NCBI RefSeq assembly: GCF_030066995.1
Contig: NZ_JASJAP010000002.1
Location: forward strand, 310,001 to 374,000
Direction: 5' to 3'
From: Erythrobacter sp.
Lineage (GTDB): Bacteria > Pseudomonadota > Alphaproteobacteria > Sphingomonadales > Sphingomonadaceae
Length of the DNA stretch: 64,000 nt
Below the pieces are notes generated by a model that searched no databases, had not been told where the DNA came from, and worked only from the letters and a program-made list of their open reading frames with translations. Numbering within the stretch: the first letter of the stretch is position 1; the number at the start of each line of letters is the position of its first letter. Positions 1,309-24,637 of this stretch are shown here, piece after piece. The translations under genes were made by a program, and so were the position numbers.

Positions 1309-1315
1309 GCGCGCG

Positions 1316-2320
1316 ATGGCCTATTCGGTTCTCATCATCGGCTGCGGAGCCATTGCGGGCGGTTATGACGCGCAGCGTTCGCCCGAGGGCTGGCCGCTGA
1401 CCCACGCGGGCGCGATCGCGCGCGACGAACGGTTTGCGCTGGCGGCTTGTGTCGATCCCGATGAGAACGCCCGAAATGCGTTTGCCGAGCGGTGGAAGGT
1501 GCCGCTTGCCGCGCCCGATCTGGAGAGCCTGAACGCGCAAGCGGGCGACTACGATCTTATCGTCATCGCCTCGCCCACCCCGTTTCACGCCGAGCATCTT
1601 GAATGGACGCATGGCCTTGGCCCCAAGGCCGTCTTCTGCGAAAAGCCGCTCGCGCACAGTTTCGGATGGGCTCAAAGCCTCTTTTACGGATACGATCAGA
1701 GCGCGATCCCGCTCGCCATCAATTACACGCGCCGCTGGCAGCCCGATCTCAACGCTCTCGTCGAAGAGGTTCGGCAGGGCGATCGCTGGGGCCGTTTGCT
1801 GAGCGCGGTGGGCACGTATTCAAAGGGGGTCGTTCACAACGGCACGCATCTGGTCGATCTGCTGATGATGTTTGCAGGCCCCGTCGATCTGGCAACACTC
1901 GGACCCGCGCTTGTCGATCATTGGGACGATGACCCCACCGTCAACGCGATCCTGACCGCGAAAAAAACGGGCGCGCCGCTTCATCTGGTGGGGGGGGACA
2001 GTCGGGCCGTTACGCAATTCGAACTGGTGCTGAACTTTGAGCGCGGCGAGATAGCCGTTCGCGATGGGGGGATGCGGATCGAGACCCGGCGGGTCGAGGA
2101 CAGTCCTACCTTCTCCGGATACCGGCAACTCGGCGCGCCAACCAGCGCGCCCGGGCGCTATGCAGAGGCCATGTCGGCTGCTTACGATGACCTGGCCAAA
2201 GTGATGGCGGGAGAAGTCGATCCGCAATGGTCGGGCGCAAACGGTCTGGAGGCGCAAGCCATTTGCGAAGCCATGCGCTCCAAAGCCCTCGAAAATCTGA
2301 AGAAAGACCCTCTCGGATGA
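1316..2320 (+). CDS. Gfo/Idh/MocA family sugar oxidoreductase
   Basis: 334-residue NAD(P)-dependent dehydrogenase. The N-terminal Rossmann domain has GCGAIAGGY (residues 9-17), and the family motif CEKPLA lies at 108-113 with the conserved Lys. The C-terminal alpha/beta domain has NYTRRW and NGTHLVDL, where the His is in the usual catalytic position. It starts 7 bases after pseI and overlaps the next aminotransferase by 4 bases. Oxidoreductase, then aminotransferase, then acetyltransferase is the order seen when a 3-keto sugar is made, aminated and acetylated (WbpB/WbpE/WbpD logic). I infer that role; the nucleotide-sugar substrate cannot be read from sequence. Confidence 0.85.
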   Translation: MAYSVLIIGCGAIAGGYDAQRSPEGWPLTHAGAIARDERFALAACVDPDENARNAFAERWKVPLAAPDLESLNAQAGDYDLIVIASPTPFHAEHLEWTHGLGPKAVFCEKPLAHSFGWAQSLFYGYDQSAIPLAINYTRRWQPDLNALVEEVRQGDRWGRLLSAVGTYSKGVVHNGTHLVDLLMMFAGPVDLATLGPALVDHWDDDPTVNAILTAKKTGAPLHLVGGDSRAVTQFELVLNFERGEIAVRDGGMRIETRRVEDSPTFSGYRQLGAPTSAPGRYAEAMSAAYDDLAKVMAGEVDPQWSGANGLEAQAICEAMRSKALENLKKDPLG

Positions 2321-3594
2321 CCAAAACACTCGCCCTTCACGGCGGCCCTGCGGTGATCGACCGCCCGCTTGCGCCCTTCCGCGCGATGGGGCCGGAGGAA
2401 GAAGCGGCGGCGGCGCGCGTGGTGCGTTCGGGCGTGCTCTCGGCCTATATCGGCGCGCCGGGCGAGCTTTTCATGGGCGGCAAGGAAGTGCGCGCGTTCG
2501 AGGAAAAGGCGGCGGACTATTTCGGTGTCAAGCACGCGCTGGGCGTCAACAGCTGGACGAGCGGGCTGATCGCGGAAGTGGGCGCTCTCGACATCGAACC
2601 GGGCGACGAAATCATCACCACGCCCTGGACGATGAGCGCGACCGCGATGGCGATCCTGCACTGGAACGCGATCCCCGTTTTCGCCGATATCGACCGCGCG
2701 AGCTTCAACATCGATCCCGCCAGCGTTGCGGCGCTCGTCACCGAGCGCACCAAAGCGATCCTGGCGGTCGATATCTTCGGGCAGACGGCCAACGTCCCCG
2801 CCCTGCGCCAAATCGCCGACGAACACGGGCTGAAGCTTCTGGGGGACACGGCGCAGGCCCCCGGCGCTCTGATGGATGGAGGCAAGGCCGGGACCGGCTA
2901 CGACATCGGCGGCTTCAGCCTCAATTACCACAAGCACATCCATTGCGGCGAAGGCGGTATTCTGGTCACCAATGACGAGGGTTACGCAAGGCGCATGGCG
3001 CTCATCCGCAACCACGCCGAAAGCGTGATCCAGCCCAGCAGCCGCGCGGACCTTGCCAACATGATCGGCTACAACTTTCGCATGGGCGAGATCGAGGCGG
3101 CGATCGCCAGCGTCCAGCTCGACAAGCTTGCCGAACGTGTGGCCGATCGCCAACGGGTCGCGGCGGAGTTGAACGCAGGGCTTGGCGCGCTGGAGGAGCT
3201 GACGACGCCCCATGTCGCACCCGGCGCAACCCACGTCTATTACGTCTATGGCTGCCGGCTCGATCTTGAGGCGCTGGGCGTAACGCGCGCCGCTTTGGTC
3301 GAAGCGCTCAAGGCCGAGGGCGTGCCCGGGCTCATGCCCGGCTATCAGACCATTCACCGCCTGCCGATCTTCACCCAGCGGTGCGCCTACGGGACGGGCG
3401 GCTTTCCCTGGAGCCTGCGCGAGGACCGCAGCTTCGCCTACGGCGCGGGAACCTGCCCCGTTGCCGAAGAACTCCACGATGCGAGCTTTCTCGGGCTCTC
3501 GATCTGCCTCAACCAGCTGCCGAGCGCGGACGTTGCGCAGATCGTCGCCGCGTTTGAGAAGGTCTGGGCCAATCTGGACGCTCTGCGCGCATGA
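2317..3594 (+). CDS. DegT/DnrJ/EryC1/StrS family sugar aminotransferase
   Basis: 425 residues, the full length of a PLP-dependent nucleotide-sugar aminotransferase. GDTAQAPGA (residues 176-184) holds the Asp that contacts the pyridine nitrogen, and NYHKHIHCGEGG places the Schiff-base lysine at K206. The start is the ATG at 2317, which overlaps the stop of the preceding oxidoreductase (ATGA). An in-frame upstream ATG at 2227 lies inside that gene and is rejected because family homology begins at the later start. It likely aminates the keto sugar made by the preceding gene. The gene overlaps a GNAT gene by 4 bases, consistent with an amination-acetylation pair. Confidence 0.88.
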   Translation: MTKTLALHGGPAVIDRPLAPFRAMGPEEEAAAARVVRSGVLSAYIGAPGELFMGGKEVRAFEEKAADYFGVKHALGVNSWTSGLIAEVGALDIEPGDEIITTPWTMSATAMAILHWNAIPVFADIDRASFNIDPASVAALVTERTKAILAVDIFGQTANVPALRQIADEHGLKLLGDTAQAPGALMDGGKAGTGYDIGGFSLNYHKHIHCGEGGILVTNDEGYARRMALIRNHAESVIQPSSRADLANMIGYNFRMGEIEAAIASVQLDKLAERVADRQRVAAELNAGLGALEELTTPHVAPGATHVYYVYGCRLDLEALGVTRAALVEALKAEGVPGLMPGYQTIHRLPIFTQRCAYGTGGFPWSLREDRSFAYGAGTCPVAEELHDASFLGLSICLNQLPSADVAQIVAAFEKVWANLDALRA

Positions 3595-4127
3595 ACCTTG
3601 CCGCGTTTACTCAGCTTGCGGGTGGCAAGGTCACGCTGCGCCGGTTTGAGCGTGAAGACATCACCGAGGCCTATATCGCCTGGCTCAACGATCCCGAAGT
3701 GACGCGCTATTCGAACCAGCGCTTTCGCACCCACACCCGCGCGAGTTGCGAGGCCTATCTCGCGAGCTTTGCGGGATCGCACAACCTGTTCCTGAGCGTG
3801 CGTGACGCAGCCTCGGGCGTCGCCATCGGTACAATGACAGCCTACGCCAATCCCCATCACGGCACCTGCGACGTTGGCATCATGATCGGAGCGCGAGAGG
3901 TCTGGGGCGGTGGCTATGGAAGCGAGGCGTGGAACCTTCTGACCGACTGGCTCGTGTCCGATGGCGACGTGCGCAAGCTCACCGCCGGCTGTCTGGCCGT
4001 CAACGCCGCCATGATCCGGCTGATGGAGCGCTCGGGCATGACGTGCGAAGCGGTCCGGGTTGGCCAGGAGCTGCTCGACGGCGCCCCTTGCGATATCGTG
4101 CATTACGCGCGCTTTGCCGATGGCTGA
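3591..4127 (+). CDS. GNAT family N-acetyltransferase (RimJ/RimL type)
   Basis: 178 residues with a complete GNAT fold: an N-terminal LRRFEREDITEAYIAWLNDP stretch typical of RimJ/RimL-like sugar or amine acetylases, a central acetyl-CoA site around EVWGGGYGSEA (residues about 104-114), and NAAMIRLMERSGM near the C-terminus. It overlaps the aminotransferase by ATGA and the next gene by 8 bases. From that context it probably acetylates the amino group installed by the aminotransferase. Substrate assignment is inference; an unrelated protein or small-molecule acetylase cannot be excluded by sequence. Confidence 0.8.
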   Translation: MNLAAFTQLAGGKVTLRRFEREDITEAYIAWLNDPEVTRYSNQRFRTHTRASCEAYLASFAGSHNLFLSVRDAASGVAIGTMTAYANPHHGTCDVGIMIGAREVWGGGYGSEAWNLLTDWLVSDGDVRKLTAGCLAVNAAMIRLMERSGMTCEAVRVGQELLDGAPCDIVHYARFADG

Positions 4128-7562: not shown

Positions 7563-8573
7563 TTGACGTCGATTGCATCGCGAACGGCATGGCTTGAGGG
7601 TCCGGGAGACCTGGTCTGGCGCGATGAGCCACTGGCGGCTCCAGGGCCGGGCGACGTGCTGTGCGAAACTCTCATCACCGCCATCTCTCCGGGCACCGAG
7701 CTCGCCGCCTGGCGCGGAGCGCCGCCCCTGCGCCCCGGCAATCCTTTCCCCCGCGTTCAGGGCTACTGCAATGTCGCCAAGGTGCTCGAAGTGGGCAGCG
7801 GTGTGGAAGGCCTTGCGCCCGGCGACCGGGTTCTAACCCTCCAATCGCATCGCAGCCATTTCGTGTGTCCGGCCTCCGATGTCTATGTGAAGCTCACTTA
7901 CGCGATGGGGGCCAAGGACATCGCGACGGCCTATCTCTTCCACCTTGGCTACAACGCCGTGCTGCGCAGTGATGTGCGCGCGGGCAGCCGGGTGTGCGTG
8001 ATCGGGCTGGGCGCGCTGGGTCTGACTTCGGTGGCGATGGCGAAGCAAGCGGGGGCAGAGGTTTATGCGGTTTCGGACCATGACCATCCGCGCTACCTCG
8101 CTGAAGAGGAATATGGCGCGCGCGGCGCCTTTGCCCGCGCGGAACTGGAAACTTTGCGCGGCGAGATGGAAGCCGGCGCGCACGCGGTTCTGCTGACCAC
8201 CAACAGCTGGGCCAATTACCGCCTCGCTCTCGACATCGCAGCCCCCAACGCGGTGATCGCCTGTTTGGGTTTTCCGGGCCGGGAAGCGCCTCCGGGAGAC
8301 TTCAACCCGCTCTCCGCCGAACCGTTCTACACCAAGCAATTGCGGATCGAGGCGGTCGGGATGTCGCCGCTCGAGAATGACAACCGCGGCTTCACCCCGT
8401 TCAACCTGCGCGACAATCTCAATTACATCGCAAGGGGGATGGAGCGCGGATTGCCGAACGCGCAGCCCATCATCTCGGGCGTCTACCCCGCCGCTCACCT
8501 TGAACGCGCCTATCGCGATCTCGACGCGCGCAAGGACAACGCGGTCACCTTTCTGCTGGACTGGACGCCATGA
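7563..8573 (+). CDS. MDR-superfamily (zinc-type alcohol dehydrogenase-like) oxidoreductase
   Basis: 336 residues in the medium-chain dehydrogenase fold: GroES-like N-terminal part with VQGYCNVAKVLEVGSG and GDRV, then a Rossmann domain with VIGLGALGLTSVAMA (residues 147-160). The usual catalytic zinc cysteine is replaced by ISPGTELA, and the four-cysteine structural zinc lobe is absent. It starts at TTG 7563 behind a strong AAGGAGA site and overlaps a Gfo/Idh/MocA gene by ATGA. Elsewhere these two domains occur fused as one bi-domain oxidoreductase in polysaccharide loci, so the pair probably acts as one sugar-modifying unit. The substrate is unknown. Confidence 0.8.
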   Translation: MTSIASRTAWLEGPGDLVWRDEPLAAPGPGDVLCETLITAISPGTELAAWRGAPPLRPGNPFPRVQGYCNVAKVLEVGSGVEGLAPGDRVLTLQSHRSHFVCPASDVYVKLTYAMGAKDIATAYLFHLGYNAVLRSDVRAGSRVCVIGLGALGLTSVAMAKQAGAEVYAVSDHDHPRYLAEEEYGARGAFARAELETLRGEMEAGAHAVLLTTNSWANYRLALDIAAPNAVIACLGFPGREAPPGDFNPLSAEPFYTKQLRIEAVGMSPLENDNRGFTPFNLRDNLNYIARGMERGLPNAQPIISGVYPAAHLERAYRDLDARKDNAVTFLLDWTP

Positions 8574-9682
8574 CAGCGACGTTTGCCGCAGGCGTGATCG
8601 GCTGCGGGCGGATGGGCGCCTTCCCCTCGCCCAGCGTGCGCGAATACGGGCCCGCCTGCTTCCTGCCGAGCGCGCACGCCGAAGCCATGCAAATGGCCGA
8701 TGGGGTTGACCTGGTGGCGCTCTGCGACCCCGACGCCGAGCGACTGGCGCGCGCGGGCGAACACTATGGGGCCCAGCGCCGGTATAAAGACGCTCGCGCC
8801 CTTCTCGAAGCTGGCGCGCCCGACGTTCTGGGCGTTGCGACCCGAACCCTTGGGCGCGCGGATATCATCCTCGACGCCATCGCCTCCGGCACACGCGCAT
8901 TGCATGTCGAGAAACCGCTGTGCAATTCGATGGCGGAGCTTGAGCGGCTTGGGCCGGTGCTGGAGCGAGAGGATGTGTTCGTCACCTTGGGCGCGGTGCG
9001 CCGGCACTTTGCGGTCTACCAACACGCCCTCGCACAAGCGCAGTCTGGCCAGTATGGTCGCCTGCTCTTCGCCCACGCGGAATTCGGCGCGCGCACGCTC
9101 TATTGGTCGCACCCGCACTCGGTCGATCTGCTGCTCTTTGCCGGAGGCGGCGCGCGCGTCGAGGCGGTGCAGGCGCGGCTCGGTTCCGTCGAACGCGAAG
9201 GCTCGACGATCACCAACGACCCGCTCGTGCTCGAGGCCAGCGTCTGGTTCGACACCGGTTTCTCAGGCCATATCACGCGCATGCCGGGAACGGACTGGCG
9301 GCTGGCGTGCGAGACCTCCCAGCTCGCCGTGGTGGCCAATGGCTCGTCGATCTGGCGATCCGGTCGCCCCAAAATCGCCGACGATCGCTCATCGACGAAT
9401 CCAGCGGGCGCCAATCCCTATCACGAGCCGGAACGCCTTGATTTTGCTCCCCCCGCAAAGCCCGAGGGCGCGCTGGCGCCGATCCGGCAGCTGATTGCCT
9501 GCCTTCGCGGCGACGCGCAGGCCATCGCCGCCAACGCCGCCGTCAAGCGCGACATCGTGACGGGGCAGCGCGTTCTGTTTGCGATGGTTCAGTCGCATCT
9601 CGAAGGCGGCCGCCCGGTCGCGCTGGACGATGTGGACCGCGCGCTCGCGATCGAAGGCCGAACCGGCGGAGCGCCCGCGTGA
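8570..9682 (+). CDS. Gfo/Idh/MocA family oxidoreductase
   Basis: 370 residues. GVIGCGRMGAF forms the N-terminal nucleotide loop and VEKPLC carries the conserved Lys of the family. WSHPHSVDLLLF supplies the His in the expected C-terminal domain position. It overlaps the MDR gene at its start and the next gene at its end (GTGA), so it sits inside a coupled string. It probably forms a functional pair with the preceding dehydrogenase in making an unusual sugar; this is inferred from the known fused form. Confidence 0.82.
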   Translation: MTATFAAGVIGCGRMGAFPSPSVREYGPACFLPSAHAEAMQMADGVDLVALCDPDAERLARAGEHYGAQRRYKDARALLEAGAPDVLGVATRTLGRADIILDAIASGTRALHVEKPLCNSMAELERLGPVLEREDVFVTLGAVRRHFAVYQHALAQAQSGQYGRLLFAHAEFGARTLYWSHPHSVDLLLFAGGGARVEAVQARLGSVEREGSTITNDPLVLEASVWFDTGFSGHITRMPGTDWRLACETSQLAVVANGSSIWRSGRPKIADDRSSTNPAGANPYHEPERLDFAPPAKPEGALAPIRQLIACLRGDAQAIAANAAVKRDIVTGQRVLFAMVQSHLEGGRPVALDDVDRALAIEGRTGGAPA

Positions 9683-11070
9683 GCGGCCCGCCCAAGATCC
9701 TGTTTTTCGCGCGCGGATTTCAGGCGGGCTTCTACCCAGAGCTTCGCCCGGAGCCGGGGGACGATCGCTTCGAGCCGGTCTATGTCACGCTGACCCGCGA
9801 GGAGGCGGCGCAGGTGCGCGCCAAGGGTTGTGAGGTCGCCGCCTGTTTCGAAGCGGATTTCGACGCGATTCCCCCCGCCGAAGTGCCGGACAACTATCTG
9901 CTGACTTCGCTGATGTCCGAGCGTTTCCTTGGCCGCTACTCCCATGAAGAGCGGCTGGTGATCCTTGGCAAGGAAATCGCCTTCTGGCGTGCGCTCCTCG
10001 ATAAGCATCAGCCCGTCGCGGTGTGCAACGAATTGATCGCGATCGAGATTTCCGAGGTTCTCCTGATCGAAGCCCGGGCGCGCTCGATCGCCTATCTCGC
10101 GCCGATGTATTGCTTGATCGAGGGGTTATTCTACTGGCTTCCCGATCCGCTGACTTTGTCGGGCCAATCGCTCGATCTGCCCGAGCCCTCCGAGGCCTCG
10201 CTCGCGCTCGCCGACGCCTATCTCGCCGAGGTGCGCAAGAGCGATTACAAGCCCTATTACGTGCGCAACCTTGCCAGCCGGCGCGCGCTCAAGCCGCTCG
10301 CCACGGGGCTTGCCAAATCGGCACTGTGGCGCTGGCGCGATCAGCGGTCACGCGACGCGACAAAGCCCGGCGCCTTTCGCTACGAGACCTATTCTGAGGA
10401 ATATGGCAAGCGCGGCCAGGTGTTTGCGGCGAGTTTTCGGCAGAGCTACGACGCGCTGGGCGACATTCCCGAAACCCATGAAATCGTGCTCTACCCCCTG
10501 CATCAGGAGCCCGAAGCCACGCTCAACTATATGAGCGAATTCTTCTCCAGTCAGGTCGCGACGATCGAGAACATCCTCAAATGCCTCACCGCGCATCAGC
10601 GCCTGGTGGTGAAGGAGCACCCGGTCGACAAGGGCGCGCTCTTGCGGCCCAAGTTTCGCGCGTTGAGAGAGCGGTATTCGAACCTCGCCTTCCTGCCCGC
10701 CGAAGTGCCTGCGCGCGAGATTCTGGAGCGGTGCGAGCGGGTGGTGACGCTCACCAGCAGCGTGGGCTGGGAGGCCGCGGTGCTGGGCAAGAGCGTGTGC
10801 GTCATGGGTGAAATCTATTGGGACAGCGTGCCGGGCGTCCGACGCGTATCGAACTGGCCAGAGCTGCGAGACGCCATGCGCACGCCGGTCGATCGGATGG
10901 AGCGCGTGACGCCCGAGGGCGCGCGCCATTTCGTCGCCGCGCTGGCCCAGTTCAGCCATAAGGGACGCCCGCTGCCCAACCCAAAGCTCTACGATCCCGA
11001 TAACATCGCCGATGTGCGCGAAGCGATCCTGAAGGGCGCTGGAATTGCCCGGCCTGCTGGCGAGCGCTAA
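9679..11070 (+). CDS. Capsule-type GT-B glycosyltransferase-like protein
   Basis: 463 residues, soluble, GTG start overlapping the previous stop. The C-terminal half carries the signature of capsule polysaccharide transferases of the KpsC/KpsS and related type: YPLHQEPEATLNY, VVKEHP and, later, TLTSSVGWEAAVLGK with GEIYW. The N-terminal half has RYSHEERL and a run of Ile/Glu-rich sequence typical of the acceptor lobe. It probably adds a sugar in the assembly of the repeat unit or its anchor. The donor is unknown. The next gene starts 11 bases downstream. Confidence 0.7.
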   Translation: MSGPPKILFFARGFQAGFYPELRPEPGDDRFEPVYVTLTREEAAQVRAKGCEVAACFEADFDAIPPAEVPDNYLLTSLMSERFLGRYSHEERLVILGKEIAFWRALLDKHQPVAVCNELIAIEISEVLLIEARARSIAYLAPMYCLIEGLFYWLPDPLTLSGQSLDLPEPSEASLALADAYLAEVRKSDYKPYYVRNLASRRALKPLATGLAKSALWRWRDQRSRDATKPGAFRYETYSEEYGKRGQVFAASFRQSYDALGDIPETHEIVLYPLHQEPEATLNYMSEFFSSQVATIENILKCLTAHQRLVVKEHPVDKGALLRPKFRALRERYSNLAFLPAEVPAREILERCERVVTLTSSVGWEAAVLGKSVCVMGEIYWDSVPGVRRVSNWPELRDAMRTPVDRMERVTPEGARHFVAALAQFSHKGRPLPNPKLYDPDNIADVREAILKGAGIARPAGER

Positions 11071-15777: not shown

Positions 15778-16743
15778 TTGGCGCGTATCCTGTTCATCGG
15801 CATCGATTTCTACGATTACGCCGCGCGCATCAGCGCCGCGTTCGAGCGGTTGGGGCACACGGTTGATTTTTACGCCATCGAGGATCGCGGCTTCGCTTCG
15901 AAAAGCGCCAAGAAACTCGCCTTTAGCGCCTATGAAAAACGCCGCGCGGCCTATCATTCCCGCCTGATCGAGAAAAGCGGCGGGCGCTCCTATGACGTGG
16001 TCCTGTTCATCCAGGTTCATCAGATGCGTCACGCCGCGCTCGAACGCCTGCGCGCCCTGCACCCGGATGCGCGTTTCGTGCTCTACAACTGGGATTCGCT
16101 CACCACGCACGATTTTCGCCCCTGGATGCGCCACTTCGACCATGTCGCGACCTTCGATCCGGACGACGCGCGCGCGATCGGCATCGCTTACCTCCCGCTG
16201 TTTGCGATCCCGCGCTTTTTCGACATCGATCCGGCGCGGCCTATCGAGCAGGATCTCTATTTCGTCGGGGCCATCGGTTCGATGAACCGGTTCGATGCCC
16301 TCGCGCGCCTGCACGGCTTTTGCGAAGGGGCCGGGCTGACGACGAAGCTACATCTTGTGTGCAGCCCCGTGGTGCGCCTCCAGCTTTGGCGGGCGGGCAA
16401 ATCCCTGCCCGGCGTGACCGGGCGAAGCCTCGACTTCGAGGGCGTCGTCGCGATGCTCGAAGGCAGCCGGGCGACGTTCGACTTCGCCAATCACAGGCAG
16501 TCGGGCTACACCATGCGGCTGATCGAGAATATGTGCGCGGGCCGCAAGATCATCACCGAAAACCCGCGCATTCTGGACGAGCCGTTTTACCGGGAGGATC
16601 GTTTCTTGTTGGTCGATGGCCACGATTTCAGCGCCATCCCCGAATTTCTGGCGACGCCGATCACCTCGAAACTGGATGTGGAGGCCTTTCACGTCGATAA
16701 CTGGGCGCGCCGCCTGATCGCAGACAGACAGGACGCTCGATGA
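15778..16743 (+). CDS. CgeB-like glycosyltransferase
   Basis: 321 residues, probable TTG start at 15778 (no ATG before the first conserved strand ARILFIGIDFYDY). The protein follows the pattern of CgeB/DUF3880-type GT-B transferases: an N-terminal half with YDVVLFIQVHQM and LYNWDSL, and a C-terminal half with FANHRQSGYTMRLIENMCAGRK, where the Glu in RLIENM matches the donor-ribose contact. It overlaps the next acyltransferase by 4 bases. Donor and acceptor are unknown. Confidence 0.75.
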   Translation: MARILFIGIDFYDYAARISAAFERLGHTVDFYAIEDRGFASKSAKKLAFSAYEKRRAAYHSRLIEKSGGRSYDVVLFIQVHQMRHAALERLRALHPDARFVLYNWDSLTTHDFRPWMRHFDHVATFDPDDARAIGIAYLPLFAIPRFFDIDPARPIEQDLYFVGAIGSMNRFDALARLHGFCEGAGLTTKLHLVCSPVVRLQLWRAGKSLPGVTGRSLDFEGVVAMLEGSRATFDFANHRQSGYTMRLIENMCAGRKIITENPRILDEPFYREDRFLLVDGHDFSAIPEFLATPITSKLDVEAFHVDNWARRLIADRQDAR

Positions 16744-17362: not shown

Positions 17363-18346
17363 ATGCAAAAGACGGCTCTGGTGTGCGGTGCTGGTGGGTT
17401 CATCGGCGGGCATCTGGTCAAGCGTCTGAAGGCCGAGGGGTTCTGGGTCCGAGGCGTCGATCTCAAGTTCAACGAACACGCCGAAACACAGGCGGATGAC
17501 TTCGTGATTGGCGATCTGCGCGACCAGCGCCTCGTGCGCGAGGTGATCGACCGCCGTTTCGACGAGGTGTACCAGCTCGCCGCCGATATGGGCGGGGCCG
17601 GCTATATCTTCACGGGCGAGAACGACGCCGACATCATGCACAATTCGGCGACGATCAACCTCAACGTGCTCGACGCCTGCCACAAGCGCAACATCAAGCG
17701 GGTGTTCTATTCGAGCTCGGCCTGCATGTATCCCGAGCACAACCAGCTTGACCCGGACAACCCCAATTGCGCCGAGGACAGCGCCTATCCGGCCAATCCC
17801 GACAGCGAATACGGATGGGAGAAGCTGTTCTCCGAGCGGCTCTACCTCGCCTACAATCGCAATCACGGCATGGAGTGCCGGGTCGCGCGCTATCACAATA
17901 TTTTCGGTCCCGAGGGCACCTGGACAGGGGGCAAGGAAAAAGCGCCCGCAGCGATGTGCCGCAAGGTCGCCGAAGCCGCCGATGGGGGATCGATCGAGGT
18001 GTGGGGCGACGGCAAGCAGACCCGCAGTTTCCTCTATATCGACGAATGCCTTGAAGGAACGATCCGCCTGCTTCGTTCGGATTTCGAAGGGCCGGTCAAT
18101 ATCGGCTCGGACGAGATGATCGCAATCAACGGCCTGGCCAAGATGGCGATCGACATTTCGGGCAAGAGCGTCGCGATCAAGAACATTCCCGGCCCGCTTG
18201 GCGTGCGGGGACGCAATTCGGACAATCGCCTGATCCGGCAGCGTCTGGGCTGGGCGCCGTCCGAGACACTGCGGGACGGGATGGAAAAGACCTACGCCTG
18301 GATTGCGGGCGAGGTGATGCGCGATCACAATCGCCGCGCGGCCTGA
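17363..18346 (+). CDS. GDP-mannose 3,5-epimerase-like NAD-dependent epimerase
   Basis: 327-residue extended SDR. GAGGFIGGH is the NAD loop. The residues that define plant GDP-mannose 3,5-epimerase are all present: SSACMYPE with C121 as acid/base, YGWEK with Y150 and K154, GKEKAPAA around K191-K193, and GVRGRNSDN near the C-terminus. LAADMGGAGYI is also diagnostic. The enzyme would make GDP-L-galactose (and GDP-L-gulose) for the polysaccharide. It has its own leader of about 150 bases with a GAGGA site before the ATG, so it may start a transcription unit. GME-type function is a strong family inference; plain 4-epimerase activity is the alternative. Confidence 0.8.
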   Translation: MQKTALVCGAGGFIGGHLVKRLKAEGFWVRGVDLKFNEHAETQADDFVIGDLRDQRLVREVIDRRFDEVYQLAADMGGAGYIFTGENDADIMHNSATINLNVLDACHKRNIKRVFYSSSACMYPEHNQLDPDNPNCAEDSAYPANPDSEYGWEKLFSERLYLAYNRNHGMECRVARYHNIFGPEGTWTGGKEKAPAAMCRKVAEAADGGSIEVWGDGKQTRSFLYIDECLEGTIRLLRSDFEGPVNIGSDEMIAINGLAKMAIDISGKSVAIKNIPGPLGVRGRNSDNRLIRQRLGWAPSETLRDGMEKTYAWIAGEVMRDHNRRAA

Positions 18347-18485: not shown

Positions 18486-19217
18486 ATGAGCGCGAGAAAG
18501 CAACTCCTTCGAACGGTCAACAAGGTGATCGCGCCCACCGGAGCGCAGCTTTACCGCGCCGGCGCCGACATGGAGTACGCGCTCGGTTGGCTGGCGCGGC
18601 GCGACCATGGGATAGCCAGCGTTCTCGACCTGGGGGCGGCGCAGGGCAATTGGAGCCGGATGGCGCTGGACCTGTTTCCGCAAGCGCGTGTGGTTGGCGT
18701 CGATCCGCTTGAAGAGCGCGTGCCCCATCTGGCCAGGCTGAAAGCGGAAAATCCGCGCTTCGACTTCGTCTCGGCGGTAGCCGGAAGCGAGGATGGCGGC
18801 ACGGTGGAGCTGGCGGTGACCGAGGATCTGGATGGCTCCAGCGTCAACGGTACAGAGGGGGTCGTGCGCCGCGTCCCGGTTCATTCGCTAGACGCCATCG
18901 CCGAGATGAAGGGGCTAACCGGCCCTTATTTCCTGAAATTCGACACGCACGGCTTTGAAAAGCCGATTCTCGAAAGCGCCGAGCGCGTCCTTGAGGAGAC
19001 GCGCTTTATCGTTATGGAAGCCTACAATTTTCGCCACACCCCCCAAACGCTCCTTTTTCACGAAATGATCGCCTATCTGGAACAACGAGGCTTTCGCGTG
19101 AGTCATCTTGTCGATGTGCTCAACCGGCCGAGCGACGGAGCGCTGTGGCAGGTTGACCTCATGTTTGCGCGCGCCGAGGACCCCATCTTCGAAAGCAACG
19201 CCTTCCGCAATGGCTGA
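18486..19217 (+). CDS. FkbM family methyltransferase
   Basis: 243 residues. Class I SAM-binding motif VLDLGAAQGNWS (residues 46-57), the acidic VVGVDPLEE strand, and LKFDTHGFEKPIL, a hallmark of the FkbM family. HSLDAIAEM lies between them as usual. FkbM enzymes O-methylate sugars or lipids, and here the likely substrate is a sugar in the polysaccharide. It is followed with an 8-base overlap by a WecG/TagA glycosyltransferase. The 139 bases before it carry no recognised gene. Confidence 0.85.
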   Translation: MSARKQLLRTVNKVIAPTGAQLYRAGADMEYALGWLARRDHGIASVLDLGAAQGNWSRMALDLFPQARVVGVDPLEERVPHLARLKAENPRFDFVSAVAGSEDGGTVELAVTEDLDGSSVNGTEGVVRRVPVHSLDAIAEMKGLTGPYFLKFDTHGFEKPILESAERVLEETRFIVMEAYNFRHTPQTLLFHEMIAYLEQRGFRVSHLVDVLNRPSDGALWQVDLMFARAEDPIFESNAFRNG

Positions 19218-20004
19218 AGCCGATCCCCTTCCACTCAGCCCGGTTGTCCCGGACCACGCCGCGCCTGAGCAATGCGTCGAGGCGATGGGCTACTGCGTCT
19301 ACAACGAAGACCTGGCGCGCATCCCGCTGCAAAGGCCATGTTCGACAATCCAGACCATAAGCCCGATCAGCTATGGCAACGCGACGCGCGACCCGCTCTA
19401 CGCGCAAGCAATGCAGAAGGCCGATTACCTTTGCCTTGATGGCGTGTATTTCGGCCTGTCCTCGCTCCTGCTGAAGGGCGAGACGATGAAGCCCAATCAG
19501 GGTCCGGACATCTTCTACCACTTCATGGCGCGATTGCAGGCCAAGAAGGGGCGCGTCTTCTTCCTCGGAGCCTCTCGCGAGACGCTCGAGAAGATGGAAG
19601 AGCGAACGCAGCGCGATTACCCGGACGTCAGCGTGGGCAGCTTCTCCCCGCCGTTCAAGCCGGAGTTTTCCGACGAAGACAACGAAGAGATGATCGCCGC
19701 GGTGAACGCGTTTCGGCCCGATGTCGTGTTCCTGGGCATGACCGCTCCCAAGCAGGAAAAGTGGGGCTATCTCCACCGCGACCGGCTCGACGCTTCGCTC
19801 GTCGCAGCCGTCGGCGGCGTGTTCGACTGGTACGCGGGCAACCGCCCGGAAATCGCCGAGTTCTGGTGGAAGATCTACTTGGCCTGGCTGATCCGCACGA
19901 TCGACCGGCCCGAACTTCTGAAGCGTTACCCGCAAATCGGCCTGTTCTTCTGGCATCTCGCGCTCGCGAGGTTGGGCATCAAGAGGTATCCGACAAGTGT
20001 CTGA
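19210..20004 (+). CDS. WecG/TagA/CpsF family glycosyltransferase
   Basis: 264 residues. The GT26 signatures are clear: NATRDPLYAQAMQKADY and LDGVYF in the N-terminal half, LGMTAPKQEKW in the middle and VGGVFDWYAGN near residue 205. Such enzymes transfer ManNAcA, ManNAc or glucose to a lipid-linked sugar early in polysaccharide assembly. The ATG at 19210 is chosen because it overlaps the preceding stop (ATGGCTGA) and homology begins soon after; earlier in-frame ATGs are inside the methyltransferase gene. It overlaps the next gene by 8 bases. Confidence 0.88.
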   Translation: MAEADPLPLSPVVPDHAAPEQCVEAMGYCVYNEDLARIPLQRPCSTIQTISPISYGNATRDPLYAQAMQKADYLCLDGVYFGLSSLLLKGETMKPNQGPDIFYHFMARLQAKKGRVFFLGASRETLEKMEERTQRDYPDVSVGSFSPPFKPEFSDEDNEEMIAAVNAFRPDVVFLGMTAPKQEKWGYLHRDRLDASLVAAVGGVFDWYAGNRPEIAEFWWKIYLAWLIRTIDRPELLKRYPQIGLFFWHLALARLGIKRYPTSV

Positions 20005-21082
20005 GCCGTTGAAACTCGCGATTATCGGCGCTGGCCGGATGGGTATCACCCATTATTCGATCGCCAACGCGCACAGCCACGCGGCGATCGCCGCCGTCGC
20101 CGATCCCTCGCTCCTGATCACCACGATGCTTGGCAAATACGCGAAGATTGCAACGTACAAGGATTACAAGGGCCTGTTGAAGAACGAGGCGCTTGACGGT
20201 GTGCTTGTCTGCACGCCGCCTGCTTTCAATCCGGAGATACTCCAAGCGGTTCTGGAGCGGCGCATCGCTACATTTTGTGAGAAGCCATACGTGCTCGACG
20301 CTGCGGCGGGCGCGCGGTTCGCGAAAGAATTCGACGCGGCAGGCATCGTCAACCAGGTCGGCTATGTGAACCGCTGGAACGACATGTTCACCAAGGCCAA
20401 GGCGCTGGTGGATGACGGCTTGCTGGGCGCGCCCTTGCGTTTTCGCAGCGAAATGTTCTCACCCACGATAATCCGCGATGCCGGAGAAGCGGGCTGGCGC
20501 GCCGCCCATGCCAATGGCGGCGGCGCGGTATTCGAGATGGCGAGCCACGCGATAGACCTCATCGCCTATTTCTTCGGAGCGCCCAGCCGCGTGGGCGGCA
20601 CCAGCCTGTCCAAGGTCTATTCCAAGCAGGTCGAAGACATCGTCTCCACCAGCCTGTTTTACGACACGGGCGCTCACGCAGGGCTGAGCGGCACGATGTA
20701 CGTGAACTGGTCCGATGCGAGCTTTCGCAAACCGACCAACAAGTTCGAAGTGTTCGGGCAGGCGGGCAAGCTGCTCGTCGATCAGCACGGGATGAAGGTC
20801 CATCTCGCCCAGCCCAGCGAGCGCCATGGCCTCAAGGAAGGCTGGAACCAGTTCTACATTACCGATGTCGCGAGCAACGTACCCTTCTATGTGCGCGGGA
20901 TCGAATACACTGCGCAGCTCTATGACTTCATCGACGCGGTTCGCGCGCAAAAGGCGGGGCGCACCAAGCCGGTGCGTTGCACCTTTGCGGACGCCGCGGC
21001 CAATCTGAAGGTGATCGAGCAGCTTTTTGCCGATGACGCGGCGCAGCGCACGAAGGGCCGAGATCAGGGGGTGGCCGCATGA
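19997..21082 (+). CDS. Gfo/Idh/MocA family oxidoreductase
   Basis: 361 residues, GTG start inside the end of the previous gene. IGAGRMGITHYS is the nucleotide-binding loop; CEKPYVLDAAA carries the conserved Lys; EMASHAIDLIAYFF supplies the His in the C-terminal domain. It overlaps the following TIM-barrel-like gene by 4 bases, and that one overlaps an epimerase, so three enzymes are made as one coupled string. The cassette probably converts one nucleotide sugar. The reaction is not deducible. Confidence 0.83.
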   Translation: MSEPLKLAIIGAGRMGITHYSIANAHSHAAIAAVADPSLLITTMLGKYAKIATYKDYKGLLKNEALDGVLVCTPPAFNPEILQAVLERRIATFCEKPYVLDAAAGARFAKEFDAAGIVNQVGYVNRWNDMFTKAKALVDDGLLGAPLRFRSEMFSPTIIRDAGEAGWRAAHANGGGAVFEMASHAIDLIAYFFGAPSRVGGTSLSKVYSKQVEDIVSTSLFYDTGAHAGLSGTMYVNWSDASFRKPTNKFEVFGQAGKLLVDQHGMKVHLAQPSERHGLKEGWNQFYITDVASNVPFYVRGIEYTAQLYDFIDAVRAQKAGRTKPVRCTFADAAANLKVIEQLFADDAAQRTKGRDQGVAA

Positions 21083-22029
21083 GCGCTTACGCCCATCCCA
21101 TCGACCGGCCCATCGACCGGCCCATCGACCGGCCCATCGACCGGATCGTGTTTGGCGACAACCAGTTCTTCGGCATCAACCATATGAGCCAGGACAAGGC
21201 GCAGGAACGCGCCGAGCGCTTCGCGAGCCTTGATAACGTGATGGCGGTTTACGATCACGCGATCGAGGCCGGGATCGAGGCGATCATGCTCAACAGCAAC
21301 GATCGCGCGCGCTCGATCTGCGATGCGTTCCGCGCCGATCCCGCCCGATACGGTCATCTCAGATGGTATCCCTCCATCCCCTACCCCCACAAATACGCCG
21401 CCATGGTCAACGACAAGGGTATGGTCGGCGCCGTTCAGGAGATCCTCTTCAACAAGGGCGCCAAATCGGCGCTTGGCAAAATGGTGCGCGGCGCAAGCGC
21501 GGTGGCGACGCTCGACGCGGTCAAGCTCATGAAGATGCTGATCGATGAGGAAATGGCGATTTACGACGGGCTCGATGTGCGCTGCGTCTTCCTGCAGAAT
21601 ATCATCACCGATCTGATGCTCGGCTATGACGTGCCCGACCCGTTCGTCGCCTATTGCGAGTATATCCGCGAACGTTACGGCGCCTGGCCGGGCCTGATCA
21701 CGCAAAACCTGCCGTTCCTGCGCGCCAAACTGCGCGAATGGGGCGTCGAGGGCGTGGTTATCTGCGCGTCGATAAACAAGATCGGCTATCTCATGAGCCC
21801 GGGCGTGGCCGAGTATGAGGCCGACCTTGCCGCCAACGATGGCGCGGCATACCCGGTGATGGCGATGAGCACGCTCGCAAGCGGCGCGGTGCCGCCGGTC
21901 GAGGCCTACGATTACATCAACCGCCTCAACATCCAGTCGATCGTCTTTGGCGCCTCTTCGCCCGGCAATATCCGGCAGACGGTCTCCTTGATCAACGCCG
22001 CGCCAAAGGCTCAGGAGGCCGCCGAGTGA
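21079..22029 (+). CDS. Uncharacterised AKR-like TIM-barrel protein of a polysaccharide locus
   Basis: 316 residues. I do not recognise a named family. The ends resemble aldo-keto reductases: IVFGDNQFFGINHMS near the N-terminus and NIQSIVFGASSPGNIRQTV near the C-terminus match the first strand and the cofactor loop of AKR barrels, but the catalytic Tyr region is replaced by MLNSNDRARS, so the AKR tetrad is not visible. Residues 7-22 are four exact PIDR repeats encoded by four identical 12-base units. It is coupled on both sides by 4-base overlaps with a Gfo/Idh oxidoreductase and an SDR epimerase. Role in the same sugar conversion is inferred. Confidence 0.6.
   Translation: MSAYAHPIDRPIDRPIDRPIDRIVFGDNQFFGINHMSQDKAQERAERFASLDNVMAVYDHAIEAGIEAIMLNSNDRARSICDAFRADPARYGHLRWYPSIPYPHKYAAMVNDKGMVGAVQEILFNKGAKSALGKMVRGASAVATLDAVKLMKMLIDEEMAIYDGLDVRCVFLQNIITDLMLGYDVPDPFVAYCEYIRERYGAWPGLITQNLPFLRAKLREWGVEGVVICASINKIGYLMSPGVAEYEADLAANDGAAYPVMAMSTLASGAVPPVEAYDYINRLNIQSIVFGASSPGNIRQTVSLINAAPKAQEAAE
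21097..21144 (+). repeat. Four perfect 12-base tandem repeats inside a coding region
   Basis: CCCATCGACCGG occurs four times without mismatch and encodes Pro-Ile-Asp-Arg four times near the N-terminus of the TIM-barrel-like protein. Copy number change here keeps the frame. Confidence 0.95.
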
Positions 22030-23156
22030 ACGTCCTGATTACCGGGGGAGCGGGGTTTATCGGCTCGCGACTGGCGATGCGGCTTGCCAATGCAGGGCAC
22101 GCAGTGACGGTCCTCGACAGTTTTCTGGAACAGGTTCACGGGCCCGGTGTAGAGGAAGGCGAAGGCTATCGCGCGCTGGCGGAGGCCGCGAGGATACGCC
22201 GCGGCGACGTCACCGATCGCGCGGCGCTGGAAGGCGCGCTTGAGGGGATCGAGGCGGTCGTCCACCTCGCTGCGGAAACCGGCACCGGACAGTCCATGTA
22301 CGCGATCCAGCGCTACAACGCGGTCAATATCGGGGGGACGGCGCTGCTGCTCGATATCCTGGCCAACACCTCGCACACGGTGCGCCGGGTGGTGGTCGCC
22401 TCGTCGCGCTCGATCTATGGGGAAGGCCGCTACCGCGCGCCGGATGGCGCCTATGTCTATCCCCCGCACCGCGCCGCTGCCGACATGGAGCGAGGCGACT
22501 TCGCGGTAAAGCATCCGGGCGTTAACGGCGAGCTTGAGCTTGTCGCGACCGATGAGGAATCGAAGCTTCACCCGTCGAGCGTCTATGGCATCACCAAGCA
22601 GGTGCAGGAGCAGTTGGTGATGACGGTATGCCCCTCGATCGGCGCCGACGGCGTGGCCCTGCGCTATCAGAACGTGTACGGGCCGGGGCAATCGCTTTCG
22701 AACCCATACACCGGGATTCTCTCGATTTTTTCGAATCTTATCATGCAGGGCCGCGGCCTCAACATCTTCGAAGACGGGAAAGAGAGCCGCGATTTCGTTT
22801 ATGTGGACGACGTGGTGGAAGCCACCGCGCTCGCGCTTGTCCATACCGACGCGGCCGGACAGGTCTTCAATGTGGGCAGCGGCGTCCCGGTCTCCGTGAT
22901 CGACGTCGCGCGGACCCTCGCGCGCCTGTTCGACGCCGATATTCCGATCGAGGTAACCGGCCAATTCCGCCTTGGCGATATCCGCCACAATTACGCCGAT
23001 ATGGCGCGGATCAAACAAAGGCTTGGCTTTGAGCCCGAATGGAGCTTTGAACGCGGGATCGCCGAACTGGTAGTCTGGGCCAGGGCAACCGGGCCCCAAT
23101 ACAGCGCCTATGAGGAAAGCCTGTCCGAAATGCGTGAAAAGGGACTGCTGAAGTGA
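22026..23156 (+). CDS. NAD-dependent nucleotide-sugar epimerase/dehydratase (extended SDR)
   Basis: 376 residues. GGAGFIGSR gives the NAD loop, SSRSIYGEG the catalytic Ser strand, and YGITKQVQEQ the Tyr-x3-Lys pair. RYQNVYGPGQS and FVYVDDVVEA are the usual substrate-domain motifs. Insertions around residues 130-180 make it longer than a GalE-type enzyme, as in dTDP-L-rhamnose 4-epimerase-like proteins. It overlaps its neighbours by 4 bases on each side and closes the three-enzyme sugar cassette. The precise sugar is not assignable. Confidence 0.82.
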   Translation: MNVLITGGAGFIGSRLAMRLANAGHAVTVLDSFLEQVHGPGVEEGEGYRALAEAARIRRGDVTDRAALEGALEGIEAVVHLAAETGTGQSMYAIQRYNAVNIGGTALLLDILANTSHTVRRVVVASSRSIYGEGRYRAPDGAYVYPPHRAAADMERGDFAVKHPGVNGELELVATDEESKLHPSSVYGITKQVQEQLVMTVCPSIGADGVALRYQNVYGPGQSLSNPYTGILSIFSNLIMQGRGLNIFEDGKESRDFVYVDDVVEATALALVHTDAAGQVFNVGSGVPVSVIDVARTLARLFDADIPIEVTGQFRLGDIRHNYADMARIKQRLGFEPEWSFERGIAELVVWARATGPQYSAYEESLSEMREKGLLK

Positions 23157-24637
23157 AACCGGCCGGCAACCTTGTCGCGCAAGGAGTGTGGGCCCGCTCG
23201 CGCGCGCCGTTTGCTGCGGCGGGTGCGCTGCTTCTGGCGGTCTTCGTGCTGGGCGGAAGCTCCAAGGATTATGTGCCGGGCTTGCTTGTGATCCGCCCGC
23301 TGGCAGTGCTCACGCTCGCGGTTGGCCTTTACAGCTTTACGCGCGAGGACTGGCAGCGCTTCAAGCTTCCGCTCGCTTTCATGGCGGCGACGCTTGGCCT
23401 GATCGCGCTGCATCTTGTTCCACTGCCTCCTGCGCTCTGGATGGCGCTTCCCGGGCGCGAACTCGCGGTCGCGGCGGGGGAGGCAGCCGGGATCGAGCAG
23501 CCATGGCGCCCCATCACGCTGGTCCCCTATCGCGGCTGGAACGCCTTCTACGCCACGCTGGTGCCTGCGGCGGTGCTGGTCTGCGCGGTGCAGCTCGAAC
23601 GAGATCAGCATCGCGCGCTGGCGCTCCTCATACTGGGCGGCGCTCTGCTCAGCGCGGTTTGGGGAGCGGTGCAGTCCGTCAGCGGGTACGCGCCGTGGAC
23701 CTTTTTCTACGGCCTGCCTAGGGTGGAAGTGCCCAACGGCCTGTTCGCCAACCGCAACCATCTGGCCGCTTTCCTGGTCGCCAGTCTGCCCTTGTTTGCC
23801 CTGATCGCCTCGCGCGCCAAGGGACCGCGCGCAACGATCTGGATCACGGGTTGCGTGGCGCTCGCCGCGTTCGCGGTGATGATCGCCCTGACGACAGGAT
23901 CGCGCGCCGGGATGGCGCTCACCGTGTTGGGGCTCGCGGCCAGCTATCTGGTCTGGCGCTCGCGTCCAAGCCACACGATTGCGCGGCGGCGCACGACCAA
24001 GAACCAGGCGTGGATGCCTTACGCCTTTGGCGCTTTCGGATTGACGACCCTGGTGCTCTTTGCCCTGTTGATCACACAAACAACCGGGTTTGAGCGTCTA
24101 TTGAGCGCTGGTTCGGGCGAGGTTGAAGAATACCGCTTCATCGTATGGCGCACGATCATCCGGTTTGCGCCGGACTATCTGCCCATGGGTTCGGGCATCG
24201 GGTCGTTCATTGAGATCTTCAAGGTCCACGAACCCGACGAAATGCTGGGACAATCCTATTGGAACCACGCGCATAACGATTGGCTGGAATGGGCGATGGA
24301 GGGCGGTATTCCGGCGATTGCGCTGATGGTCATCGCCGTCTTCGCCTGGGCCGCGCGGGCGCTCGCGCTGGTGCAAAACAGCCATCTTGGACGCGTTGAG
24401 ACGCAGCTGGGGCTGGCGGGCGCTATCATCTTGTTTATCCTTGGCGCATGGAGCCTTGTCGATTATCCGATGCGCACGCCGGCGCTGGCCAGCCTCGCCG
24501 CCTTGTGCGCGGTGTGGATGGCCTCACCCGCAGCGGTTTCCCGGTTTGCGGAAAAAGCGCCAGGCCAGGCGCCGGACAGCGAGGTAAACCGGGGCTTTGC
24601 AAGACCCGACGGAGGGCCGGAGGGCGCGACACGGTGA
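23153..24637 (+). CDS. O-antigen ligase family membrane protein
   Basis: 494 residues, GTG start overlapping the preceding stop. About 12 hydrophobic segments, a long periplasmic loop (about residues 320-390) with GSGIGSFIEIF and YWNHAHNDWLEWAMEGG, the latter being the conserved H-N-D-W-L-x-x-x-x-E-G motif of the Wzy_C/O-antigen ligase family. Members act as ligases or as polymerases (ExoQ-like). Because it directly precedes the wza and wzc genes of an export system, a polymerase role is as likely as ligation to lipid A. It has a short polar C-terminal tail rich in Gly and Pro. Confidence 0.83.
   Translation: MKPAGNLVAQGVWARSRAPFAAAGALLLAVFVLGGSSKDYVPGLLVIRPLAVLTLAVGLYSFTREDWQRFKLPLAFMAATLGLIALHLVPLPPALWMALPGRELAVAAGEAAGIEQPWRPITLVPYRGWNAFYATLVPAAVLVCAVQLERDQHRALALLILGGALLSAVWGAVQSVSGYAPWTFFYGLPRVEVPNGLFANRNHLAAFLVASLPLFALIASRAKGPRATIWITGCVALAAFAVMIALTTGSRAGMALTVLGLAASYLVWRSRPSHTIARRRTTKNQAWMPYAFGAFGLTTLVLFALLITQTTGFERLLSAGSGEVEEYRFIVWRTIIRFAPDYLPMGSGIGSFIEIFKVHEPDEMLGQSYWNHAHNDWLEWAMEGGIPAIALMVIAVFAWAARALALVQNSHLGRVETQLGLAGAIILFILGAWSLVDYPMRTPALASLAALCAVWMASPAAVSRFAEKAPGQAPDSEVNRGFARPDGGPEGATR

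Follow-up and report, generated by a model that had tools for sequence, protein, structure and literature searches.

What do a dehydrogenase and a barrel protein of no named family accomplish together inside a bacterial polysaccharide cluster? The question is raised by a stretch of 64,000 nucleotides from Erythrobacter sp. (contig NZ_JASJAP010000002.1 of assembly GCF_030066995.1, positions 310,001 to 374,000 of the forward strand; hereafter the window), in which the genes for a Gfo/Idh/MocA-family oxidoreductase (Gfo/Idh), the barrel protein and an epimerase-type short-chain dehydrogenase/reductase (SDR) follow one another within a long polysaccharide cluster. A first-pass annotation, made from the letters alone, had taken the three as a fixed cassette for an undescribed sugar conversion. 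The follow-up analysis described here confirmed the observation itself and partly supported its interpretation: an undescribed sugar conversion still appears to be the best reading, and of the proposed trio it is the Gfo/Idh and the barrel protein that form an obligate pair in the genomes examined. We lean, with somewhat less than even confidence, towards the view that this pair is a two-protein enzyme system in envelope-polysaccharide synthesis, providing a 3-keto sugar route to a rare sugar.

An obligate pair across genomes

In 82 of 83 loci the barrel gene is closely preceded by a homologue of the Gfo/Idh, the single exception (L065) having its barrel at the start of a contig. These loci comprise the best 80 of 516, which lean to close relatives, together with three from the genomes G017 and G026. 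Open reading frame (ORF) calling recovers 77 of the pairs, 76 with no gene between the partners and one (L006) with a single intervening gene, and the median gap is 12.5 bases on rough start calls. At L053 the Gfo/Idh looks disrupted, and a short ORF intervenes. Five loci (L053, L065, L068, L072 and L073) failed the filter for the Gfo/Idh, although a homologue is still present at all of them except L065. One locus, L025, in which a Gfo/Idh also adjoins the barrel, is without the exact GDNQFF string and is omitted from the later counts, which refer to 82 loci.

Whole-genome searches were run so that genomes were not chosen by similarity. The barrel was found in 3 of 61 relatives and in 2 of 398 genomes of the same phylum (the window's own genome being included in both), as well as in 6 of 395 Bacteroidota and 8 of 195 Bradyrhizobium genomes, two sets whose centre genome had been picked for carrying the barrel gene. 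A Gfo/Idh profile at E<=1e-60 retrieved the same 6 Bacteroidota and the same 8 Bradyrhizobium genomes and no others; scoring was confined to the top 5-10 candidates in each genome and the species are not independent, so that Fisher values for the co-occurrence should not be taken at face value. All 13 loci that were checked (L092 and L131-L142) have a Gfo/Idh homologue upstream of the barrel, and the sole non-adjacent pair in these two sets, in G919 (L142), has a gap wide enough for one gene. L057, L066 and L088 recur among the Bradyrhizobium loci. Moreover, the distance matrices of the barrel and Gfo/Idh proteins, compared over 76 loci, correlate with r 0.92, the highest of 1000 permutations giving 0.085; L049 and L053 are absent from this comparison and from set A2, and set A5 holds 69 of the 77 Gfo/Idh references together with the window sequence. 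Given that the pair is kept from alphaproteobacteria to Bacteroidota and actinobacteria, it must have one well-defined job.

The pair is also carried by plasmids, beside polysaccharide genes, in Bacteroides thetaiotaomicron, Palleronia and Rhodovulum (L143, L144 and L145), and such carriage fits its patchy distribution. Further, G017, a genome of the same genus as the window, holds two diverged pairs on different contigs (L005:8325-10318 and L006:3988-6940), whose barrels are 41 and 44% identical to that of the window; the SDR is absent from the stretches fetched.

The dehydrogenase partner

The first-pass assignments of the Gfo/Idh and the SDR agree with their Pfam matches (Table 1). The E95-K96-P97 motif, with its EKP lysine, and the catalytic H184 are kept in 78 of 78 Gfo/Idh homologues, and the AlphaFold2 model of the protein has a predicted local distance difference test (pLDDT) score of 96.2. 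No characterised NCBIfam equivalog is reached; the best match, inositol 2-dehydrogenase, scores 101.8 bits against a cut-off of 355.

In structural comparison with VIA-align, the top match of the model is levoglucosan dehydrogenase (6a3g, Z 38.6), and further matches are scyllo-inositol dehydrogenase (Z 37.3), WlbA with UDP-GlcNAcA (3q2k, 36.2), GenD2 (35.3), glucuronide-3-dehydrogenase (34.5), KanD2 (33.6) and the UDP-GlcNAc 3-dehydrogenase GnnA (33.2), where UDP-GlcNAc is uridine diphosphate N-acetylglucosamine and UDP-GlcNAcA its uronic acid. WlbA, GenD2 and KanD2 oxidise C3 of the pyranose, and GnnA and glucuronide-3-dehydrogenase do so by entry title; the C1-acting glucose-fructose and aldose-aldose oxidoreductases are also among the matches. 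C3 is likewise the position oxidised by levoglucosan dehydrogenase, according to the published account (PMC7676230). The Gfo/Idh is predicted to be an NAD-dependent dehydrogenase of sugars, acting at C3 or a neighbouring position.

A barrel protein outside the named families

The middle protein had been left unassigned at the first pass, and profile searches agree: it has no match at E<=1 in Pfam or NCBIfam, the aldo-keto reductase (AKR) family PF00248 (Aldo_ket_red) included. Scanned singly against Pfam, 81 barrel homologues touch 27 families at a best E of 0.0082, PF00248 matching one member (E 0.23). A PF00248 search of the window's own genome recovers three other AKRs and misses the barrel. 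An NCBIfam scan of the same 81 members gave 19 scattered families, none of them at cut-off, the lowest match being the thiol peroxidase Prx-SUH in four members at a low E-value (3.9e-07). When 40 of the 81 were rescanned singly, Prx-SUH was not met, its carriers being among the other 41; topoisomerase VI appeared once (E 7.3e-05, 21.4 bits against a cut-off of 1143), an exonuclease model once (E 0.005), and the HisA-type isomerase TIGR00007 in two members (E 0.003 and 0.0015, residues 192-280). HisA is a phosphate-binding isomerase with a triosephosphate isomerase (TIM) barrel, and its two matches, at L048:9998-10867 and L030:10004-10882, fall on the C-terminal half of the barrel with 17-18 bits against a cut-off of 229. 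The matches in the 40 rescanned members, none of them near a cut-off, were taken as chance.

Sequence searches of the PDB with the barrel alone and with its profile gave nothing significant, the best AKR having an E of 0.8, and three annotated plasmid records (L143, L144 and L145) label the barrel "hypothetical protein". The 13 pattern matches in viral contigs include no barrel relatives, and phage records contain no members. A literature search, with most subscription journals outside its scope, found neither the barrel family nor its fixed combination with a Gfo/Idh described.

Of the AKR-like ends that had been proposed for the protein, the C-terminal one stands. It carries an AKR-like motif, SIVFGASS, and single hhalign comparisons with the AKR C-terminus gave a probability of 45.5 (E 2.2e-4), or 59.8 (E 8.8e-5) when the barrel's C-terminal half was used; the whole-length profile alignment is trustworthy at this C-terminal stretch only. 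The earlier impression of a barrel is matched by the predicted structure. An AlphaFold2 model built from the 81-sequence alignment (pLDDT 85.6, predicted template modelling score 0.84; model residue n is ORF residue n+16) has eight strands, and VIA-align superposes it on the AKR 4exa with Z 17.8 and a root-mean-square deviation of 3.0 over 225 residues at 12% identity. The 50 entries listed by VIA-align 2 are AKRs, including L-galactose dehydrogenases, YghZ and Kv-beta. Among the 50 Foldseek matches listed, the best is 3wg6 (E 2.3e-6), TM-scores are only about 0.5-0.65, and most are AKRs, together with an orotidine monophosphate decarboxylase and SmbA. The barrel is thus predicted to have an AKR-type (beta/alpha)8 fold.

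Across 88 barrel sequences, a set that includes L135 (35% identical to its best match there), 23 positions are invariant, among them His19, Tyr86, Lys89, Tyr90, Asp162, Asn194 and Asn217. Eighteen of the 23 lie at the C-terminal ends of the strands, round the barrel mouth (binomial p 2.4e-5, a value that ignores relatedness and uses a zone definition of our own). The C-terminal strand ends are the usual place of a TIM-barrel active site, and the clustering of invariant residues there is more in keeping with an enzyme of different chemistry than with a dead relic.

In the window, the N-terminus of the barrel contains four perfect copies of a 12-bp repeat (21097-21144), encoding PIDRPIDRPIDRPIDR, which precede the conserved GDNQFFG. 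The corresponding stretch in L007 reads RPIERPIDR, and the other listed relatives have one copy or none. The repeat may be a slippage-prone leader.

Glycosyltransferase neighbourhood

Genes within 250 bases upstream of the Gfo/Idh or 300 bases downstream of the barrel are present in 63 and 57 of the 82 loci, and 62 and 49 of them were scanned. Directly upstream of the Gfo/Idh, 16 of the 62 belong to the WecG family, 8 to DUF1972 and 7 to DUF354, and 6 carry a GT28 C-terminal domain; downstream of the barrel, 14 of the 49 match SDR models, 4 are WecG and 4 are UDP-GlcNAc 2-epimerases. By tblastn, at least one of five glycosyltransferase types (WecG, Alg13, Alg14, DUF354 and DUF1972) lies within 3.5 kb in 59 of the 82 loci, WecG being the commonest (27 of 82). 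In one contig of a Bacteroidetes metagenome-assembled genome (L049:9168-10853), the barrel and WecG are fused in a single ORF of 562 residues.

WecG-family enzymes are thought to add the second sugar to an undecaprenyl-linked monosaccharide, which is the committed step in select pathways, according to a 2024 study on a Sphingomonas polysaccharide (PMC11340318). The pair therefore often has the gene for a committed step as its neighbour.

Proposed role and alternative explanations

In the two-protein system that we favour, the Gfo/Idh would, judging from its family and fold, oxidise a ring hydroxyl, most likely at C3, of a nucleotide-carried hexose or N-acetylhexosamine. The barrel, with its own invariant set of residues, would then move or invert the centre next to the ketone without net redox, and the ketone might be reduced again by the Gfo/Idh or, in the clade of the window, perhaps by the SDR. 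The neighbourhood and the one fusion suggest that the rare sugar would enter early repeat-unit assembly, often via a WecG-family glycosyltransferase. A more specific proposal is offered tentatively, as a possibility well short of an even chance: that the barrel is catalytic, epimerising or isomerising 3-keto sugars on an AKR fold whose redox function has been lost, and that, with its private Gfo/Idh, it makes up a two-component enzyme, present in Proteobacteria, Bacteroidota, Planctomycetes, Actinobacteria and others, from which the early stages of polysaccharide assembly draw a rare sugar so far unrecognised. As to the identity of such a sugar, the literature search returned no paper titled as the biosynthesis of allosamine, altrosamine or gulosamine. 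Bradyrhizose was entertained as a hunch and dropped, the search having given nothing.

Several points weigh against this account. Identities of the Gfo/Idh to the first-named of its structural relatives are 17-24%, which makes its C3 specificity a forecast. Confidence in the barrel model drops (block pLDDT 65-69) at residues 11-30, several of which are invariant, and again at 91-130, which leaves the shape of the presumed active site uncertain. The AKR-like C-terminal SIVFGASS could reflect remaining NAD(P)H binding and hence a reductase. In 23 of the 82 loci, some of them on short contigs, all five glycosyltransferase types are missing from the surrounding 3.5 kb; the WecG count describes the loci and does not test for enrichment over background polysaccharide clusters; and the adjoining glycosyltransferases, being of several families, indicate no single donor sugar.

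The alternative that survives best takes up the C-terminal motif: the barrel would be an NAD(P)H-dependent reductase with re-sited residues, which reduces the ketone made by the Gfo/Idh from the other face, so that the two proteins act as an oxidation-reduction epimerase pair. The first-pass annotation had noted no visible AKR tetrad. Because only the C-terminal stretch could be aligned with confidence, the tetrad positions were set from the strand ends of the model, and there all 81 barrels examined are without a Tyr at 53-66, a Lys at 80-88 and a His at 152-163. The claim thus stands for Tyr and His and needs qualifying for the other two residues: Asp59, three residues past strand 2, occurs in 64 of the 81, Lys89, five residues past strand 3, is invariant, and eight members have a Lys at residue 79. 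The active site could therefore have shifted while retaining some of these residue types; invariant Tyr86 is close to Lys89, invariant His19 and Asp162 are also at hand, and invariant Asn194, Gly275 and Ser277 occupy what we take to be the cofactor-binding places of AKRs. Against these residues, and the AKR-type fold and C-terminus that a reductase would share, stand the empty tetrad positions and the failure of the Pfam AKR model to find the barrel in a genome where it finds three AKRs. Overall, we regard a reductase as unlikely, though deserving serious consideration.

A different substrate could also be envisaged, with the pair acting on the first sugar on undecaprenyl diphosphate, before the second is added, and not on a nucleotide sugar. 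The step ascribed to the WecG family, extension of just such a lipid-linked monosaccharide (PMC11340318), is consistent with this, as is the barrel-WecG fusion. The neighbouring glycosyltransferases vary (WecG, Alg13/14 type, DUF354 and DUF1972) whereas the pair is constant, as would be expected if the acceptor is what is shared. However, the characterised Gfo/Idh relatives act, to our knowledge, on nucleotide sugars, free sugars or glycosides, and we consider a lipid-linked substrate quite improbable.

Less probable again is a non-enzymatic role, in which the barrel would regulate the Gfo/Idh or serve as a structural subunit of it, in the manner of Kv-beta or of SmbA, which binds cyclic diguanylate (c-di-GMP) or guanosine tetraphosphate (ppGpp). 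Strict one-to-one pairing fits a subunit as well, SmbA (7b0e) is among the Foldseek matches at rank 28 (E 1.8e-4), and Kv-beta chains are among those from VIA-align. SmbA binds c-di-GMP via an RxxD motif in loop 7, according to the report on it (PMC9944927). In the barrel family, strand 7 is followed by a short loop, and the best-conserved RxxD column pair, starting at residue 31, is present in only 42 of 81 members, so that a second-messenger reading of the SmbA type is weakened, and the placing of 18 of 23 invariant residues at the C-terminal strand ends speaks against a non-catalytic partner.

The SDR, finally, bears on the fixed trio of the first-pass annotation. At 62-77% identity it stands directly after the barrel in 9 of the 82 loci (L007 of G026, L009-L014, L016 and L017) and 3.4 kb upstream in L015; the loci that bear it are all among the closest relatives of the barrel, and at >=60% identity it is absent from 72 of the 82, some on short contigs. 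Nine of 308 genomes from the window's family carry it at E<=1e-100: the window's own, four in which it adjoins the barrel and Gfo/Idh (L157-L160), and four (L161-L164) whose fetched flanks of about 1.5 kb contain no pair, the rest of those genomes not being searched. The SDR reaches no NCBIfam cut-off among the 25 of 80 matches listed. From this distribution the trio is a local arrangement and the SDR an optional neighbour in one clade; co-occurrence of the three elsewhere, which had been asked for as a check, holds within that clade and not beyond, whereas the pair is very widespread. A fixed pathway of all three enzymes, for which the window and the loci with an SDR beside the pair would speak, is highly improbable, contradicted as a general rule by the 72 loci without the SDR and by the four of nine SDR genomes with no pair nearby, and may hold inside the one clade. 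In L161, L163 and L164 the same SDR occurs together with the FkbM methyltransferase, the pair not being in the fetched flanks, as if these two were a module of their own.

Returning to the two-protein system, solving the role of the pair would name a sugar of many envelope polysaccharides and add a chemistry to the AKR fold. Moreover, the pair offers a ready handle for assays, being two genes for what are probably soluble proteins.

Organisation of the locus

The three ORFs, with their overlaps of 4 bases, are as the first-pass annotation had drawn them. Each ends in TGA and has a third-position GC of 0.77-0.84, a coding-type composition that, together with homologues elsewhere, establishes them as genes. 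Their delimitation as a unit does not hold: successive overlaps of 8 bases (FkbM/WecG and WecG/Gfo/Idh) and 4 bases (Gfo/Idh/barrel, barrel/SDR and SDR/Wzy) run through six genes from FkbM to Wzy, so that coupling alone singles out no three of them and the boundary of the cassette was arbitrary.

Table 1. Features of the polysaccharide cluster around the Gfo/Idh-barrel pair (window coordinates).
Feature	Position	Strand	Profile evidence	Remarks
WaaS/CpsH-type glycosyltransferase	15778-16740			same polysaccharide cluster
Further SDR	17363-18343			same polysaccharide cluster, before FkbM
FkbM methyltransferase	18486-19217	+	PF05050	
WecG/TagA/CpsF-family glycosyltransferase	19210-20004	+	PF03808 E 1.1e-38	
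Gfo/Idh/MocA oxidoreductase	19997-21082	+	PF01408 E 5.1e-17, PF22725 E 1.3e-20	start GTG
Barrel protein, unnamed family	21079-22029	+	0 matches at E<=1 in Pfam/NCBIfam	start ATG
Four-copy 12-bp in-frame repeat, start of barrel gene	21097-21144	+		unit encodes PIDR
SDR epimerase-type protein	22026-23156	+	PF01370 E 6.3e-48	start GTG
O-antigen ligase/Wzy-type polymerase	23153-24637	+	PF04932 E 1.2e-15	

Proteins encoded beyond Wzy look like export and chain-length proteins, by their position and sequence. Upstream in the same cluster, a NeuB-family synthase (PF03102), a Gfo/Idh protein, a DegT aminotransferase and a GNAT acetyltransferase stand consecutively at 250-4124, in what looks like a nonulosonic-acid module. 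A third Gfo/Idh protein (8570-9679) adjoins a zinc-type dehydrogenase (7563-8570) and a Capsule_synth protein (9679-11067). Priming phosphoglycosyltransferases number four in the genome, none of them inside the window.

Comparison with known systems

Several known systems resemble parts of the pair. SmbA is a TIM barrel like the barrel protein, and differs in the loop-7 motif that the barrel family does not conserve. AKRs (PF00248) share with the barrel its predicted eight-stranded fold and a GASS-type C-terminal motif; they differ in that the barrel falls below the PF00248 cut-off, with the Tyr and His of the tetrad missing throughout and its Lys and Asp displaced. WlbA and GnnA have the Gfo/Idh fold and oxidise UDP-sugars for envelope glycans. 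Their 3-keto sugar passes to an aminotransferase, whereas the fixed partner of the window Gfo/Idh is the barrel.

The breakdown of levoglucosan offers the closest structural match for the Gfo/Idh and a comparable sequence of events. As described in the published account (PMC7676230), a 3-dehydrogenase (LgdA) acts first, LgdB1/LgdB2, annotated as sugar phosphate isomerases, then act on the 3-keto sugar, and a Gfo/Idh reductase (LgdC) follows, so that a sugar 3-dehydrogenase and isomerase-like enzymes work in turn. That pathway is catabolic, whereas the window pair lies in polysaccharide clusters. The parts of the pair are thus of known kinds, a Gfo/Idh protein and an AKR-type barrel; what the literature searched does not describe is their fixed combination and the barrel family itself.

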